A stretch of 40,149 nucleotides of DNA from Catenulispora sp. (GTDB lineage Bacteria > Actinomycetota > Actinomycetes > Streptomycetales > Catenulisporaceae): contig JABFWL010000084.1 of NCBI GenBank assembly GCA_013362315.1, positions 1-40,149 of the forward strand, in the 5' to 3' direction. This document shows, piece by piece, positions 25,973 to 40,149 of this stretch. The notes beneath the pieces were generated by a model that worked only from the letters and a program-made list of their open reading frames with translations, did no database searches and was not told the DNA's origin. The stretch's first letter is position 1; the number at the start of each line of letters is the position of its first letter. The position numbers were made by a program, and so were the translations under genes.

Positions 25973-26479
25973 GTGGATGACGCGACGCCCGGCCTGAACT
26001 CGGAGCAACTCGGTGCGTACTTCGCCCTGATGGAGGTCAGCAGCCTTCTCCAATACGCGGTGGACGAGCATCTGCGCGCCGAGGGCGATCTCAGCTACGT
26101 GCAGTTCCAGATCCTGGCCCGCCTGGTGGACTCCCCGGAGGGCCGGCTGCGGATGACCGATCTGGCCGACGGCGTCGTCTACAGCCGCAGCGGTCTCACC
26201 TACCAGGCGGGGCTGTTGGACAAGCGCGGCCTGATCACCCGCTCGCCCTCGCGGGATGACGAGCGGAGCGTCATCGTGGCTGTCACGGATGCCGGCCGGG
26301 CCCTGGTCGCCCGCGTGCTTCCCGAGCACGCCGATCGCGTCCGGCAGCTGCTGTTCGATCCCATGTCCGGGGCAGACCTCGCCGCCCTCAGCGCCGTTCT
26401 CGGCCGGGTCCGCACCCATATGCGCGCCGCGCCGCCGCGCTCTGCCAAGCCTCGCGCCGGCCGCAACCGCACCGACTGA
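25973..26479 (+). CDS. MarR-family transcriptional regulator
   Basis: This 168-residue protein starts at the GTG at 25973. The winged helix is clear: RMTDLADGVVYSRSGLTYQA, then LLDKRGLITRSPSRDDERSV, whose DDERS lies in the wing. Helices on both sides make the dimerisation region (LLQYAVDEHLRAEGDLSYVQ). The C-terminal 20 residues are basic. It is followed after 16 bases by the XRE regulator gene on the same strand, so the two form one unit. Its own upstream palindrome suggests autoregulation; the ligand is unknown. Confidence 0.88.
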   Translation: MDDATPGLNSEQLGAYFALMEVSSLLQYAVDEHLRAEGDLSYVQFQILARLVDSPEGRLRMTDLADGVVYSRSGLTYQAGLLDKRGLITRSPSRDDERSVIVAVTDAGRALVARVLPEHADRVRQLLFDPMSGADLAALSAVLGRVRTHMRAAPPRSAKPRAGRNRTD

Positions 26480-34005: not shown

Positions 34006-36951
34006 TCACGGCGGCCTCGAGTCCCTTCTATATCTATCTCCGCCTTCACCACCGGCCGACACGCACAGTTCCACGGGCTGGACGTCCACCTCGCCGCGGA
34101 TCGCGGCCTCGATCCCCTGTACCGCCGCGGCCAGAGCATCGATCGTCGCCAGGTACGGCACACCGCGCTTGACAGCTGCGGCGTGCAGCGTCGGGCCGTC
34201 CCACGTCGACTCCCGGCCGCCCCGTCCGGCGGACACGGTGTTCACGATCAGGTCCACCTCGCCGTCCCGGATCCGGTCCACGACACCGGGTTCCCGGTCG
34301 GTCTCGACGCCGACACCGTGGCGCCGCAGGACCGAGGCGGTCTCCGCGGTCGCCCGGATCTCGAAGCCCAGGTTGGCCAGCTTCTTGAGCGGGAAGACCG
34401 CGGCCCGCTTGTCCCGGTCCGCGATCGAGGCAAGCACCCGCCCGCCGAGCGGCAGCGGCCCGTGCGCCGCCGCCCGCGCCCTGGCGTATGCCGCGGCGAA
34501 GCTCGCACCGACGCCCATGACCTCGCCCGCGAACCGCACTCGCGGCCCGAAGGCGGTGTCGGTTCCCCAGCCGCCTGGGCCGGGAAAGCCGTCGAGCGGG
34601 AACACCGTCTCGCGCACCGCCACCGGGGCGTCCGAGCGAGGCTGCCCGTGGTCGCCGGCGGCCGGTAACAGTCCGGCGGCCCGCAGGCTCTCGATCTCCT
34701 CCCCCAGCATGATCCTTGCCGCGGCGCCGGCCAGCGGCGTCCGAGTGGCGTTGGAAAGAAACGGCAGGGTCCGGGATGCGCCCGGGTTCACCTCGAGGAC
34801 ATAGAGCGTTCCGGCGCGGAGGGCGAAACGTACGTTGAACAGGCCTCGTAGACCACTCTTCTCGGCGATCACCTCGACGGCGGCTCGGGCCCGGTCCATA
34901 TCGTCGCGGCCCACGGTCACCGGTGGTGCGGTGCACACGGGCCGGCCGAAGCGATCACCGACCGGGCCGATGTGCTCCGTCACTCCGCCGACGAACAGTT
35001 CGCGGCCGTCGTACAGCGCGTCGACGTCGAACTCGACCGAGTTCTCCAGGAATGGTTCGATCAGCACCTGTCCGCGTTCCCGGTCTGCCAGGCACGGTGC
35101 GAGCGCCTCCACGTCAAGGACGATCTCGGCATCGTCGACGCCGAACACGTCCGGCGGCCGTACCGACACCGGGTAGCCGAACCGCGCAGCGATCCGCGCC
35201 GCCTCGGGCCGGGAGCGGGCCGTGCCATACCTCGCCACGGCGTACCCCGCGGCGGTGAGAACGGTTTCGATCTCGGTCCGGTCCACAGCGGTCTGCAAGG
35301 CCGCGAACGAGGCGCCCGCGATCGGGACGCCGAACTCCTCCAACAGCCCGGCCATGCCGAGCGCCTCCCGCCCGCCCAGCTGGACGATCGCACCCGCCAC
35401 CGATCCGGCACGCCGCTCGGCGTCGACGACATCGAGCACGTGCTCCGCGGTCAGTGCCCCGAGGTAGCAGCGGTCGGCCGAAACCAGATGCGGATCGCAG
35501 CCCACTGCCACGGTCCGGTAGCCCGCCCCGGCCAGTGCGGACGCGGCCTGCGCGCAGGCGTGGTCGAAATGTTGCCCCCGATCGCCGCCGTCCGCCCCGG
35601 AGCCCACGTTGAACACGGTCGGCCGCGGGTCGGCCGCCGTATCGGGCCCCGGTTCGCGCGGTGCCGGGCCGTAGGTCGCGTACAGGTACGGGGGGTACCC
35701 CCGGAGCCGAGATGCGCAGGCGTCCACCCGATGGAATGCGGGCCGAACACCCAGCTGCCGGCGCAGCTCGCGGATCTCCCGCTCGCTGCCGGCGCGCACC
35801 CGGGCGATCCGGGCGTCGGAGAATCCGGCGGCCTTGAGGTCCCTCAGCGTGCGGGGATCCAGGGACCGGACACCGGCGGGCCGTCCGGACCGGATCTCCG
35901 ATTCCCAGATCGGTGTCGGGAACCAGGGGTCTGAGTCGCGAGAACGCCGTGCCCTCCGCAGCGCCTCCTGGAACGACCGCCCGACAGCGATGCCCCCGTC
36001 CGCGCCGGATCCGTAGGGAGTCAGGGGCCGCACCCGTACCACGACATGACCGGGCGACGGCTCGTGGAACACGTGGGCCCGGTCCGCGCCGCAGCCGGTC
36101 AACTCGGCCAGGGTGTACCCCAGGGCCAGCTCGGCGGCGATCCGCGCGAGCGGAACGCCGAGGGCCATGGAGGCGATGGCCGAGGAGCCGTCCTCGGCCG
36201 GATTCATCCCGACCACCGCCATCCGCCCGGTGCCCGGTTCGATCGCGAACCGGACGGTGCAACCGCCGTCGTTCACCCCGGCCGCGCGCGCGATCTGCAC
36301 GGCGGCGAGGCGCATAAGCCGGTATTGCCGGCCGCTGAGGGTCAGCGCGGGCGCGATCTCGACACCGTCCAGGCCGTCACCGTCGGCGGATTCGAATCTC
36401 TCGATCGAGCACACCATGACCTCGTCCACGCGGTCGCGGAGCACGCGCAGATCGAACTCCCGCCAGCCGGCGCCGACGCCGCGGCCCCGGCCGTGGTCGT
36501 CGCCGAGTTCGAGCCCGAGTTCGACACTCAGCCCGAGCCCGAGCCCGCCGACGATCCGCCGGATCCGCTCGCCGTCCGCCGCGACCCCGATGGTGGCGAT
36601 CGTGGCGCCGATCAGCTCGACCCCGTGCTCGTCCAGCAGGCCCGCCTCGTCCAGCGTGACGGCCGCGCCGAGCCCGGCCGGTCCGCCCACGGTGGCCAGC
36701 CAGGCATCGGGCCGCTCGATCTCGATCACCCGCGCGACGGCCTCAGGCGTGACCGGCTCGGGGTAGGTCGCGTCGGCGGAATCGGCCATCACCGTCGCCG
36801 GGTCGGGGTTGACCAGGACGACCCGGACTCCCTGGCGTCGCAGCGCCCGGCACGCCTGGACACCGGCCTGGTCGAACTCCCGGCCCCGCCCGGCCTGGAC
36901 CGGACCGGACCCGGTGACCAGGACGGACGAGATGTCGGCTCGCCTGGGCAT
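34006..36951 (-). CDS. Divergent stand-alone carbamoyl-phosphate-synthetase large-subunit-like protein (CarB-like)
   Basis: This 981-residue protein has the full CarB order: pre-ATP-grasp 1 (SSVLVTGSGPVQAGRGREFD, residue 8 on), ATP-grasp 1 to about 285, oligomerisation helices (AAGFSDARIARVRAGSEREI, 374-393), pre-ATP-grasp 2 (about 445), ATP-grasp 2 (about 560-760) and an MGS-like allosteric domain (from about 835, ending in VNTVSAGRGG and AAVKRG). True CarB is about 1070-1110. About 45 residues with the glycine loop are missing near residues 140-160. EMNPR is GMNPA at 248-252 and the metal-ligand Gln is Arg at 234; in the second half the same Gln is Arg (708) and EVNPR is EVNPG (720-724). 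No carA lies nearby. The ATG starts one base after the polyketide-synthase stop, so translation is coupled. Confidence 0.88.
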   Translation of the reverse strand: MPRRADISSVLVTGSGPVQAGRGREFDQAGVQACRALRRQGVRVVLVNPDPATVMADSADATYPEPVTPEAVARVIEIERPDAWLATVGGPAGLGAAVTLDEAGLLDEHGVELIGATIATIGVAADGERIRRIVGGLGLGLSVELGLELGDDHGRGRGVGAGWREFDLRVLRDRVDEVMVCSIERFESADGDGLDGVEIAPALTLSGRQYRLMRLAAVQIARAAGVNDGGCTVRFAIEPGTGRMAVVGMNPAEDGSSAIASMALGVPLARIAAELALGYTLAELTGCGADRAHVFHEPSPGHVVVRVRPLTPYGSGADGGIAVGRSFQEALRRARRSRDSDPWFPTPIWESEIRSGRPAGVRSLDPRTLRDLKAAGFSDARIARVRAGSEREIRELRRQLGVRPAFHRVDACASRLRGYPPYLYATYGPAPREPGPDTAADPRPTVFNVGSGADGGDRGQHFDHACAQAASALAGAGYRTVAVGCDPHLVSADRCYLGALTAEHVLDVVDAERRAGSVAGAIVQLGGREALGMAGLLEEFGVPIAGASFAALQTAVDRTEIETVLTAAGYAVARYGTARSRPEAARIAARFGYPVSVRPPDVFGVDDAEIVLDVEALAPCLADRERGQVLIEPFLENSVEFDVDALYDGRELFVGGVTEHIGPVGDRFGRPVCTAPPVTVGRDDMDRARAAVEVIAEKSGLRGLFNVRFALRAGTLYVLEVNPGASRTLPFLSNATRTPLAGAAARIMLGEEIESLRAAGLLPAAGDHGQPRSDAPVAVRETVFPLDGFPGPGGWGTDTAFGPRVRFAGEVMGVGASFAAAYARARAAAHGPLPLGGRVLASIADRDKRAAVFPLKKLANLGFEIRATAETASVLRRHGVGVETDREPGVVDRIRDGEVDLIVNTVSAGRGGRESTWDGPTLHAAAVKRGVPYLATIDALAAAVQGIEAAIRGEVDVQPVELCVSAGGEGGDRYRRDSRPP

Positions 36952-36952
36952 G

Positions 36953-39900
36953 CTAGGCGTCCAGAACCGGCAGCAGCGCCTTGACCACTTGGCTCAGCGT
37001 CGGCTCCTGCAGCATGTTGAGGTGGTCGTTGTCCAGCTCCACCAGCTGCATCTCGGTGCCGAAGTACTCGTGCCAGGGAGTGACGTAGTCGTAGTCCTTC
37101 ATGATGTTCGACGGCGGCCAGTAGATCGCGCTCGACTTGCCGGTGAAGCCGTCGAGCGCCTTGAAGAACAGGACGTCCGAGGCGTCGAAGTAGCGCATCT
37201 TGTACATCTGGTACAGGCCGGCCGAGTGGTCCGCGCAGACCGTTCCGCCACGGAGGAAGTGGTAGATGTCCTCGACCGCGATGCGCTTGTTCCCGCGCTC
37301 CTTGGCGATCCAGGCCAGTTCAAGGAGCAGCAGCTCACGCGGCAGGTGCTCGAGTTCCTCCTGGCGGATCGCCAGCTGGGGGTTGGCTTCCAGGTCGAGG
37401 AAGACGTTCGCCATGTAGAAGGGGATGAAGTCGTAGTCGTAGGTCTCCTTGTGCAGATCGAAGACCTTCTGCGTAGCCGGGTAGGTGTCGAACAGAACCA
37501 GGTGTTTGATGGTCTCGCCGGCTTCGTGGAGCCGGCGGGCCAGCTCGATCGCGGTGAGCCCGCCGAAGGAGTACCCGCCGATGACGTAGGGCCCATGCGG
37601 CTGTACCGCGCGGATGCAGGACAGGTAGGTGTCGAGCATGTCGTCCATCCGCTGCGGCATCGAGACGCCGTCGGTCCCCCGCGTCTGGAACGCGTAGACG
37701 GGATAGTCGGGCCCGAGCCCGACACTCAGGTTGGCCAGCGACGCCGCGTAGCCGTCCGCTCCCGGCACCCAGAACGAGGTCTGCTTGGAACCGACGCCGT
37801 TGAGCGGCACGATCTCCGGCGGCAACCGGTCCGGCAGCTCCCGCTGCTTCGGCCGGGCCGGGCGATGCGTCCGCGTGCTCGGCGGCGGGACCACGGCCGG
37901 GCGTTCCGTTCGGGGACGCGCCGGCTCAGGTACGGGAACGCCGCCGGAGACCAGCGTCCCAATGTAAGCCGCGAGGCGACGGACCGTGGGGTGGTCGGCG
38001 AGTGCCGCGAACGGCACCCGGCTGCCGTAGATCTGCTGAAGCGCCTGGGTGATGCCGACGCTGAGCAGCGAGTCGACTCCGAGTTCCCGGAAGGGGCGGT
38101 CGGGGTCGATGTCCTCCTCGGGGATCCTCAGCCGCTCGCTGAACAGCTCCAGGATCCGGTAGTACTCGTCCGAGTCGTCCGACGGCGCTGCCTCCACGAC
38201 GGGTGCGACGGGTGCGACAGCCGCGGCAGGTTCGACGAGCTCGGTGAGTCCGGCGGCGAACGGGCGCGCGGTGTGCACCGGGGTCTGCTTCCGGGTCGGC
38301 GCCTGGAACCAGAATCGGTCGAGGGCGAAGGGATAGGTGGGCAGCGGCACCCGAGCCGGGCTGCCCTCGGCCGCCGGCCACTGGTCGACGCCGAATCCGC
38401 CGACCCAAGCCGCGGCCAACACCCGTGGGTCGTCTTCGCCCTCGGACGGCGCCGTGCGGGCCGGCCCGGGCCGGGGACTGCCGCGGAACACGGGTTCCTC
38501 GTAGACGCCGCTGTCGCACGCCGACCGCAACCGCTCGCGCAGCACCTCCAGGCTCGGCGCCACGACGGCCAGCCGCTCGGCGAACTCCTCTCGGCCCTCG
38601 CGCAGGGTGAACGCGACATCGTCGGCGCGGAGGGGGGCCGCGGACCCGCGCTCGCGGTCCTCGAGCCACGCCAGGAAGTTCCGGACGGTGCGATCCAACG
38701 CGGTCGCGGTCTTGGCGGAGAACAGGAACACCCGGTCTCCAGGCGCCTCGTCCTCCCGCACGACAGAGCGTGGGCTCTCCTCGACGACCACGTGCGCGTT
38801 CACACCGCCGAATCCGAATGCGCTCACGCCGCCACGACGCGGCGCGGGCCTGCCGTCGGCTCCGGCCGGCTCCGGCCAGGGCACTGTCCGGTCGGCGATG
38901 AAGAAGGGCCCGCCCTCCAGGTCCACATAGGGATTGAGGGCTTGGAAATGCGCCATCCCGGGGATGGTCCGGTGGCCGAGCGAGAGCACCAGCTTGATCA
39001 GACCGGCCATACCCGAGGCCGGTTCCAGATGCCCTACGTTGGTCTTGGCCGAGCCCAGACCGGTGCGCGGCTCGGTCGGCACGGCGGCGCCCCGTTCGCG
39101 ATACAGCCGGCGGAACGCCTGCTTGATGCCGCTCACCTCGACCGGATCGCCGAGCTCAGTGGCGGTGCCGTGCATCTCGAGGTAGCCGATGGTTCCCGGG
39201 TCGACGGCGGCGTCGCGGACCGCGTCCACGATGACGTCGGCTTGCGCCTCCGCCCGCGGTGCCGTCAGCGAAGCGGCACGGCCGCCGTGGTTCACCGCGC
39301 TACCCCGGAGCACGGCATACACATGGTCCCCGTCAGAGCGCGCCTTGTTCAGGGGCTTGAGCACCAGCACGCCGGCCCCCTCGCCCTTGACGAACCCGTT
39401 CGCGTCGCGGTCCAGGGTGCGGGTCGCCCCGTCCGCCGACATGACGCCGAGCAGCGCATCGGCCACCGCCGAGTACGGCGCCAGGTTCAGCCCGATGCCG
39501 CCGGCCACGGCCACTTCGCTCTCGCCCTCGCGCAGCGAGCGGATCGCCCGGTGTACGGCGACCAGCGAACTGGAGCAGGCGGTGTTGACCGGCTCGCTGG
39601 GCCCCCGCAGGTCGAGCAGATAGGAGATCCGGTTGAGGGCGATCGCGTGCTCATTGCCGAGGCCGGCATAGGTGTCGTAGACGCCAGCCTCGTGCAGGAG
39701 GTGCTGGTAGTCGCTGAACTGGATGCCGGCGAACAGCCCGACCCGGCGTCCGGCCAGGTGCGAGGGTCGGTGTCCGGCGTCCTCCAGCGCCGCCCACACC
39801 AGTTGCAGCAGGATCCGCTGCTGCGGATCCATCATCGCGGCCTCGGCGGCGGTGATCCCGAAGAAGGCCGCGTCGAAGGCGTCCACATCGTCGATGAAGC

Positions 39901-40149
39901 CGCCCCAGCGCAGCGCCGACTGCTGATCCGGCGGCAGCACGCCTGCCTGCTCGCGCCAGTCCCACCGGTCGGCCGGGACCTCGGTCACGAGGTTGCGGCA
40001 GTCCCGCAGGTTCTCCCAGTAGCGGAGCCGGTCCGCCGATCCCGGGAACCGGGCGCTCATGCCGATGACGGCGATCGGCTCCGGACCGCCCGGCGGCGGC
40101 GTCAGATCGTCCAGCGCGGTGGGCTGAGGTTCCAGCGCGGTGGGCTGAG
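36953..40149 (-). CDS. Trans-AT polyketide synthase, terminal KS-ACP-TE module (partial, 5' end outside window)
   Basis: 1064 residues are visible up to the TAG at 36953-36955. A proline-rich linker leads to a ketosynthase (about 25-455): active cysteine C191 in VNTACSSS, H326 in EMHGTATELGD, H373 in KTNVGHLEPASG. The post-KS segment ends in LPTYPFALDRFWF, with no acyltransferase, dehydratase or ketoreductase domain. This is the mark of trans-AT synthases, which receive extender units from a separate AT. An ACP follows (S693 in ELGVDSLLSV), then a type I thioesterase with S860 (GGYSFGG), D887 (LFDTYPA) and H1042 (NDHLNML). It releases the finished chain. The CarB-like gene is coupled downstream. 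Upstream modules lie beyond the window. Confidence 0.93.
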   Translation of the reverse strand, partial: QPTALEPQPTALDDLTPPPGGPEPIAVIGMSARFPGSADRLRYWENLRDCRNLVTEVPADRWDWREQAGVLPPDQQSALRWGGFIDDVDAFDAAFFGITAAEAAMMDPQQRILLQLVWAALEDAGHRPSHLAGRRVGLFAGIQFSDYQHLLHEAGVYDTYAGLGNEHAIALNRISYLLDLRGPSEPVNTACSSSLVAVHRAIRSLREGESEVAVAGGIGLNLAPYSAVADALLGVMSADGATRTLDRDANGFVKGEGAGVLVLKPLNKARSDGDHVYAVLRGSAVNHGGRAASLTAPRAEAQADVIVDAVRDAAVDPGTIGYLEMHGTATELGDPVEVSGIKQAFRRLYRERGAAVPTEPRTGLGSAKTNVGHLEPASGMAGLIKLVLSLGHRTIPGMAHFQALNPYVDLEGGPFFIADRTVPWPEPAGADGRPAPRRGGVSAFGFGGVNAHVVVEESPRSVVREDEAPGDRVFLFSAKTATALDRTVRNFLAWLEDRERGSAAPLRADDVAFTLREGREEFAERLAVVAPSLEVLRERLRSACDSGVYEEPVFRGSPRPGPARTAPSEGEDDPRVLAAAWVGGFGVDQWPAAEGSPARVPLPTYPFALDRFWFQAPTRKQTPVHTARPFAAGLTELVEPAAAVAPVAPVVEAAPSDDSDEYYRILELFSERLRIPEEDIDPDRPFRELGVDSLLSVGITQALQQIYGSRVPFAALADHPTVRRLAAYIGTLVSGGVPVPEPARPRTERPAVVPPPSTRTHRPARPKQRELPDRLPPEIVPLNGVGSKQTSFWVPGADGYAASLANLSVGLGPDYPVYAFQTRGTDGVSMPQRMDDMLDTYLSCIRAVQPHGPYVIGGYSFGGLTAIELARRLHEAGETIKHLVLFDTYPATQKVFDLHKETYDYDFIPFYMANVFLDLEANPQLAIRQEELEHLPRELLLLELAWIAKERGNKRIAVEDIYHFLRGGTVCADHSAGLYQMYKMRYFDASDVLFFKALDGFTGKSSAIYWPPSNIMKDYDYVTPWHEYFGTEMQLVELDNDHLNMLQEPTLSQVVKALLPVLDA
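40111..40149 (-). repeat. 21-bp-period direct repeat in the polyketide-synthase linker
   Basis: CCAGCGCGGTGGGCTGAG occurs at 40111-40128 and again at 40132-40149, at the very edge of the window. Read on the coding strand it encodes QPTALEP followed by QPTAL, a seven-residue Pro/Thr/Ala linker repeat before the ketosynthase. More copies may follow beyond the edge. Confidence 0.85.

Follow-up and report, generated by a model that had tools for sequence, protein, structure and literature searches.

Introduction

Carbamoylated natural products are thought to use the general, unstable cellular pool of carbamoyl phosphate. The sources of this compound and its use in the O- and N-carbamoylation of antibiotics have been reviewed (PMC6022934), and an in vitro assay of GdmN, a carbamoyltransferase of the class treated here, lists carbamoyl phosphate, ATP and Mg but names no partner protein (PMC9633730). 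In Pantoea, insertion into carB abolished an antibiotic whose gene cluster contains a NodU/CmcH carbamoyltransferase (PMC4010436), and carB can therefore limit products of this kind. An Eleftheria terrae plasmid (NZ_CP106953) carries trans-AT-type polyketide synthase (PKS) genes together with a carbamoyltransferase 52% identical to the one described below, but no CarB-like gene among the genes listed in its incomplete gene table. In the open-licence literature searched, we found no carbamoylated polyketide cluster described with a CarB-like protein.

Here we analyse such a gene in a Catenulispora sp. The window, i.e. the whole stretch of 40,149 nucleotides under study, is the entire contig C218; the assembly to which it belongs comprises 7.97 Mb in 770 contigs and is 82% complete. 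Compared to the CarB proteins of E. coli and actinobacteria, the encoded protein has the same domain order and is homologous over its whole length, but it lacks 57, 51 and 12 residues, is altered at both catalytic sites and has no CarA partner. The extra carAB genes of the genomes G039, G060 and G135 (inferred for G016) resemble the locus in that carB lies near a CmcH/NodU-type carbamoyltransferase; they are, however, intact pairs and belong to GDSL-type clusters rather than to a PKS cluster. Likewise, the congener G007 holds a diverged CarB adjoining a carbamoyltransferase; of this CarB, however, only the tail of the second ATP-grasp domain and the MGS part exist, and its neighbour is a diaminobutyrate-type N-transcarbamylase.

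Results and Discussion

A CarB-like gene directly downstream of a polyketide synthase

The features at the right end of the window and on the contig that very likely continues it (C417, see below) are:

34006..36951, minus strand: CarB-like ORF, 981 aa, ATG at 36951, terminal gene of the operon
36952..36952, minus strand: single intergenic base (C) between the PKS TAG and the CarB-like ATG, read from the sequence
36953..40147, minus strand: last PKS module with KS, RhiE-like linker, ACP and thioesterase (Pfam), open at the window end and going on in C417
40112..40149, plus strand: 17-base element, present twice within a 21-base tandem repeat (ALEPQPT in the protein linker), located where the contig ends
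C417:13982..15757, same strand as the PKS: CmcH/NodU-type O-carbamoyltransferase (PF02543 and PF16861)

The PKS stop codon TAG ends at position 36953, and the CarB-like ATG follows one base on, on the same strand. Hereby, ORF coordinates and domains agree with the preliminary description, which had placed the gene immediately behind a trans-AT synthase ending in a thioesterase. The 1-base gap suggests that the two genes may be translationally coupled; inspection of the sequence upstream of the ATG reveals no obvious ribosome-binding site. Leftward, the gene is followed by a 1.3-kb gap and then by unrelated genes of the window. Elsewhere in the window, ARAGORN calls a tRNA-Gly(CCC) at 26282..26374, inside a MarR-like ORF (25973..26479), which is probably a false call.

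With a GC content of 0.77/0.55/0.87 at the three codon positions and zero stops, the CarB-like ORF gives a strong coding signal and is therefore not a chance reading frame. Models of the carbamoyl-phosphate synthetase (CPS) large subunit match the protein over its whole length, in three pieces; its TIGR01369 score of 578 bits lies below the cut-off of 1027 bits, while the NF003671 match lies above its cut-off. The Pfam domains found (CPS pre-ATP-grasp, CPS ATP-grasp and MGS) fall into the full large-subunit order of pre-ATP-grasp, ATP-grasp, pre-ATP-grasp, ATP-grasp and MGS. Sequence identity amounts to 47–49% with actinobacterial CarB and to 39% with E. coli CarB, and by its sequence the protein is a descendant of an actinobacterial CarB.

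No carA-like gene is present in the window, as previously noted, and the matches in the genome are confined to contig C512 and two weak glutamine-amidotransferase-like places. The sole carA above the cut-off, that on C512, lies beside a canonical carB start, of which the first 103 residues are encoded before the contig end breaks the gene. The remaining carB, from residue 375, is found on C757, where a contig end again breaks the gene; this piece and the CarB of a congener share 96% identity. Thus, a search for a second carB, which the preliminary description had proposed, leads to ordinary carA and carB genes elsewhere in the genome; the cell therefore has its own CPS, and the gene in the window is an extra copy.

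Cluster context

The last PKS ORF, in which a domain search finds no AT domain, is open at the window end. The 21-base in-frame tandem repeat in the PKS linker at 40112..40149 probably explains why the assembly broke here. Contig C417 (32.4 kb) starts with the final 10 bases of the 21-base repeat, a join preserves the PKS reading frame, and the 17-base element is found nowhere else in the genome. We consider the join of the window with C417 very likely.

On C417, where all genes described here share one strand, the PKS continues with modules that contain KS, DH, KR, ER-like, methyltransferase and ACP domains. No AT domain occurs among the domain hits in any PKS module examined on the window and C417, and the label “trans-AT” is therefore right; a free-standing AT gene was not seen on C417, and the upstream part of the cluster lies on other contigs. 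The contig also encodes an FkbH-like protein, an acyl-CoA dehydrogenase, an ACP, a 3-hydroxyacyl-CoA dehydrogenase and an O-methyltransferase, a set which, from family knowledge, we take to be typical of methoxymalonyl-ACP formation. Further genes code for a KAS III-like protein, an FAD enzyme and a SnoaL-like protein; the KAS III-like gene (C417, L044, 8054..9016) sits within the methoxymalonyl gene set.

The carbamoyltransferase that the earlier reading had suggested looking for upstream is indeed encoded on C417; once the contigs are joined, it precedes the CarB-like start by about 17 kb. Hereby, the gene order is PKS, SnoaL, carbamoyltransferase, FAD enzyme, methoxymalonyl genes, PKS with thioesterase, CarB-like gene. 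Since a CmcH/NodU-type carbamoyltransferase is encoded, we predict carbamoylation of the product, and from its genes the cluster is predicted to make a carbamoylated, methoxylated trans-AT polyketide. Operon junction and cluster context on C417 agree with the proposal that the CarB-like gene is part of the cluster of the product pathway.

This context, together with the one-base operon junction, speaks against a chance neighbour without a role in the pathway. For such a neighbour one may cite that the gene is the terminal one of its operon, with the 1.3-kb gap beyond, and that its pairing with a PKS was not seen to be conserved; we regard it as a slim possibility.

Catalytic residues and domains

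The protein was aligned with E. coli CarB, whose numbering is used here, and with 22 complete actinobacterial CarB proteins. All catalytic columns listed below are invariant across these 22, and for the catalytic roles of the residues we presume what is established for E. coli CPS. The domains are:

36589..36933, minus strand: N-half pre-ATP-grasp domain, aa 7-121 (PF25596), keeping 54 of 76 CarB-invariant residues
36103..36468, minus strand: remnant of the first (carboxyphosphate) ATP-grasp domain, aa 162-283, with 57 residues deleted just upstream
35278..35631, minus strand: C-half pre-ATP-grasp domain, about aa 441-558 (alignment)
34465..35277, minus strand: second (carbamoyl-phosphate) ATP-grasp domain, about aa 559-829 (alignment)
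34150..34398, minus strand: MGS-like allosteric domain, aa 852-934 (PF02142), the best kept, with 27 of 36 invariant residues

The 57-residue gap removes R129, R169 and the glycine loop of the first ATP-grasp domain, which further carries the changes Q285->R, E299->G, R303->A and R306->G. Of the carboxyphosphate site (R129, R169, glycine loop, E215, H243, Q285, E299, N301 and R303), only E215 and N301 are kept, and the domain is left without its Mg/ATP ligands. In the second ATP-grasp domain R715, E761, N827, E841, N843 and R848 are kept, whereas the glycine loop has changed from GGR to GVD (G722 and R723 are gone) and H788->R, Q829->R and R845->G are found. The oligomerisation region has suffered deletions of 51 and 12 residues. 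An intact second synthetase is ruled out by the loss of catalytic residues at both sites. Judged from the sequence, this protein cannot work as an ordinary synthetase, because both ATP-grasp sites are damaged and a CarA partner is missing.

Retention of CarB-invariant residues is uneven: 67 of 158 are kept in the first and 74 of 119 in the second ATP-grasp domain, 18 of 38 in the oligomerisation region and 39 of 79 in the C-half pre-ATP-grasp domain. The N-half pre-ATP-grasp and MGS domains together keep 81/112, compared to 141/277 for both ATP-grasp domains (Fisher p about 1e-4, with the grouping chosen post hoc). A predicted structure, based on three relatives only, is of middling confidence (pLDDT 67, pTM 0.48), and its unsure parts include the deletion site and the altered catalytic loops 602-606 and 663-670.

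Selection or decay

When neutral evolution was simulated from a congener carB to the same protein identity, 2–16 stops arose, in most cases 5–16, while none is observed in the CarB-like ORF. Its length differences are whole codons, and the frame is open throughout. A branch codon model rejects omega = 1 for the CarB-like lineage (2dlnL 176), with saturated dS and a differing composition that render the omega value itself unreliable. Divergence in the ATP-grasp and oligomerisation parts is nearly the same at codon position 1 as at position 2, and GC is raised at both positions of the ORF, a pattern that looks like relaxed selection. A fair reading of these sequence data is that selection maintained the protein over much of its past, with catalysis under relaxed constraint.

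Extra CarB genes in other genomes

Extra CarB genes were sought in 191 distinct genomes, 99 from the order and 98 from the class. Genes cut by a contig end were set aside, as was one bin that looks mixed (G163). Considering the best seven candidates per genome, at least six of the 191 genomes have an extra CarB, seen or inferred, with the window included. Every resolvable extra CarB locus among the 191 genomes lies near a non-housekeeping carbamoyltransferase. The loci outside the window are:

L062 1974..9871 (G039): extra carAB and carbamoyltransferase
L077 7457..11949 with L087 319..2157 (G060): extra carAB and carbamoyltransferase
L082 11641..16090 with L083 2412..4250 (G135): extra carAB and carbamoyltransferase
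L096 1..199 (G016:C35): contig start inside carA, at the same place and in the same cluster type as in G060 and G135
L060 8817..10740 (G007:C2): CarB remnant and transcarbamylase

In G039, G060 and G135 an intact extra carAB lies 1.5–4.4 kb from a CmcH/NodU-type carbamoyltransferase, the pair of G135 being assigned by its sequence start and similarity, without a separate Pfam run. The extra pairs are 77–99.5% identical by DNA to the housekeeping copies; for G039 and G060 the value is 99.4–99.5% over 4381 bases, as if a recent duplication or conversion had occurred. In G016, which is rated complete, no ordinary CarB was found, and two near-identical carAB copies have probably collapsed in the assembly. 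G016, G060 and G135 share one cluster type and are thus not independent. CmcH-type carbamoyltransferase loci (PF16861) number about 108 in the 99 genomes of the order, i.e. about 1.1 per genome, and the expected nearness within 20 kb, a limit set post hoc, is roughly 0.5–1.5% per extra copy. An extra CarB is nevertheless optional, since carAB is absent at five loci of the cluster type of G016, G060 and G135 (G087, G011, G047, G008 and G002) and the Eleftheria cluster has no listed CarB-like gene.

The remnant of G007 comprises 312 aa (C2:743816-744754) and starts 55 bases downstream of a transcarbamylase that carries RWQTTG and HDLP, motifs of diaminobutyrate transcarbamylases (PMC6022934); genes of the PALP and ornithine-cyclodeaminase families lie upstream in the same run. 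It is shorter than the CarB-like protein, and the equivalents of E841 and N843 are gone. The two proteins share Q829R, K891R and G976E and group together (bootstrap 90); both branches are long, and the grouping may reflect long-branch attraction. That they form one pseudoenzyme lineage serving secondary-metabolite carbamoyltransferases, e.g. by docking housekeeping CarAB or by holding carbamoyl phosphate, we consider rather doubtful.

The preliminary description had proposed searching other genomes for the same order of KS, ACP, thioesterase and CarB-like gene. Scans of the genome contigs for exact 8-residue matches, which diverged orthologs may escape, returned no relative of the CarB-like protein or of the thioesterase part; as no ortholog was found, the pairing with polyketide synthases is unproven. 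The pattern that recurs is one of extra CarB genes with carbamoyltransferases rather than with PKS.

Two sets of candidates were rejected. The second carB of G163 (G163:C59 and G163:C77; L088 and L085) is probably not an extra copy, as both genes lie in pyrimidine gene sets, which suggests that this bin mixes two organisms. Plasmid matches are plain carB where annotated (Tsukamurella, in a pyr operon, and Rhizobium); the Methylobacterium record is unannotated, and the Eleftheria record does not appear among the plasmid matches listed for the CarB-like protein.

Possible functions of the CarB-like protein

We tentatively favour a recruited CarB paralog which is now a non-catalytic accessory (pseudoenzyme) of carbamoylation. 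Hereby, an extra actinobacterial CarB copy would have been recruited into the cluster of a carbamoylated, methoxylated trans-AT polyketide, where a CmcH/NodU-type carbamoyltransferase would consume carbamoyl phosphate. That a carbamoylating cluster contains a CarB paralog points to recruitment for the supply of carbamoyl phosphate. Both ATP-grasp sites would later have eroded, with the N-terminal pre-ATP-grasp and the allosteric domain best retained; the present role might be, e.g., binding of housekeeping CarAB or of the carbamoyltransferase, thereby steering or regulating the use of carbamoyl phosphate. As both active sites are lost, the copy would no longer make carbamoyl phosphate, and a non-catalytic accessory is hence favoured. 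The reading builds on past selection on the protein, on the cluster context seen through the very likely join and on the extra CarB genes that recur near carbamoyltransferases; that the protein still functions, that it does so without catalysis and which partner it has are what we infer from these. Against an accessory role counts that no other polyketide-type examples were found in the 191 genomes. Moreover, no partner is strictly needed, because the GdmN assay lists none and the Eleftheria cluster has no listed CarB-like gene.

The main rival, which we regard as unlikely but serious, holds that the gene is the remnant of a once-working extra carB that fell idle once housekeeping CarAB sufficed and is now decaying, its frame being open by chance or through polar or translation effects. 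The relaxed-looking ATP-grasp and oligomerisation parts, the large deletions, the raised GC1 and GC2 and the loss of carA agree with such decay, as does the copy in G007, which is even shorter and has lost further catalytic positions. However, 981 codons without a stop, the rejection of neutrality by the branch codon model and the domain-wise uneven retention argue against it.

Alternatively, the second ATP-grasp domain could activate or ligate another substrate of the pathway, which we judge improbable. This domain is the better kept of the two and retains the six residues from R715 to R848 named above, but it has lost the metal ligand Q829, R845, H788 and the glycine loop, and the pathway does not obviously require a ligation step beyond those encoded. 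Of the preliminary proposal that a repurposed ATP-grasp enzyme acts on the chain, repurposing is thus in line with the lost synthetase residues, while action on the chain is disfavoured by the loss of metal ligand and arginine in the second site.

Still less probable is a dedicated supplier of carbamoyl phosphate, which would work on free carbamate via the second half or in complex with housekeeping CarA: the intact carAB pairs beside carbamoyltransferases in G039, G060 and G135 illustrate that supply genes exist, yet here the first site is dead, the second damaged and an own CarA absent. Finally, the self-resistance copy against a CarB-targeting product that had been considered would fit a location inside the cluster with an ordinary carB elsewhere, but is highly improbable, since a replacement for CarB must catalyse and, by its residues, this protein has lost both catalytic sites and could serve as a decoy only.

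Conclusions

Extra CarB genes beside carbamoyltransferases, be they intact or worn down, indicate that some producers may secure a dedicated supply of carbamoyl phosphate. If true, a non-catalytic relative of CarB would mean that a central metabolic enzyme has been put to unusual use.
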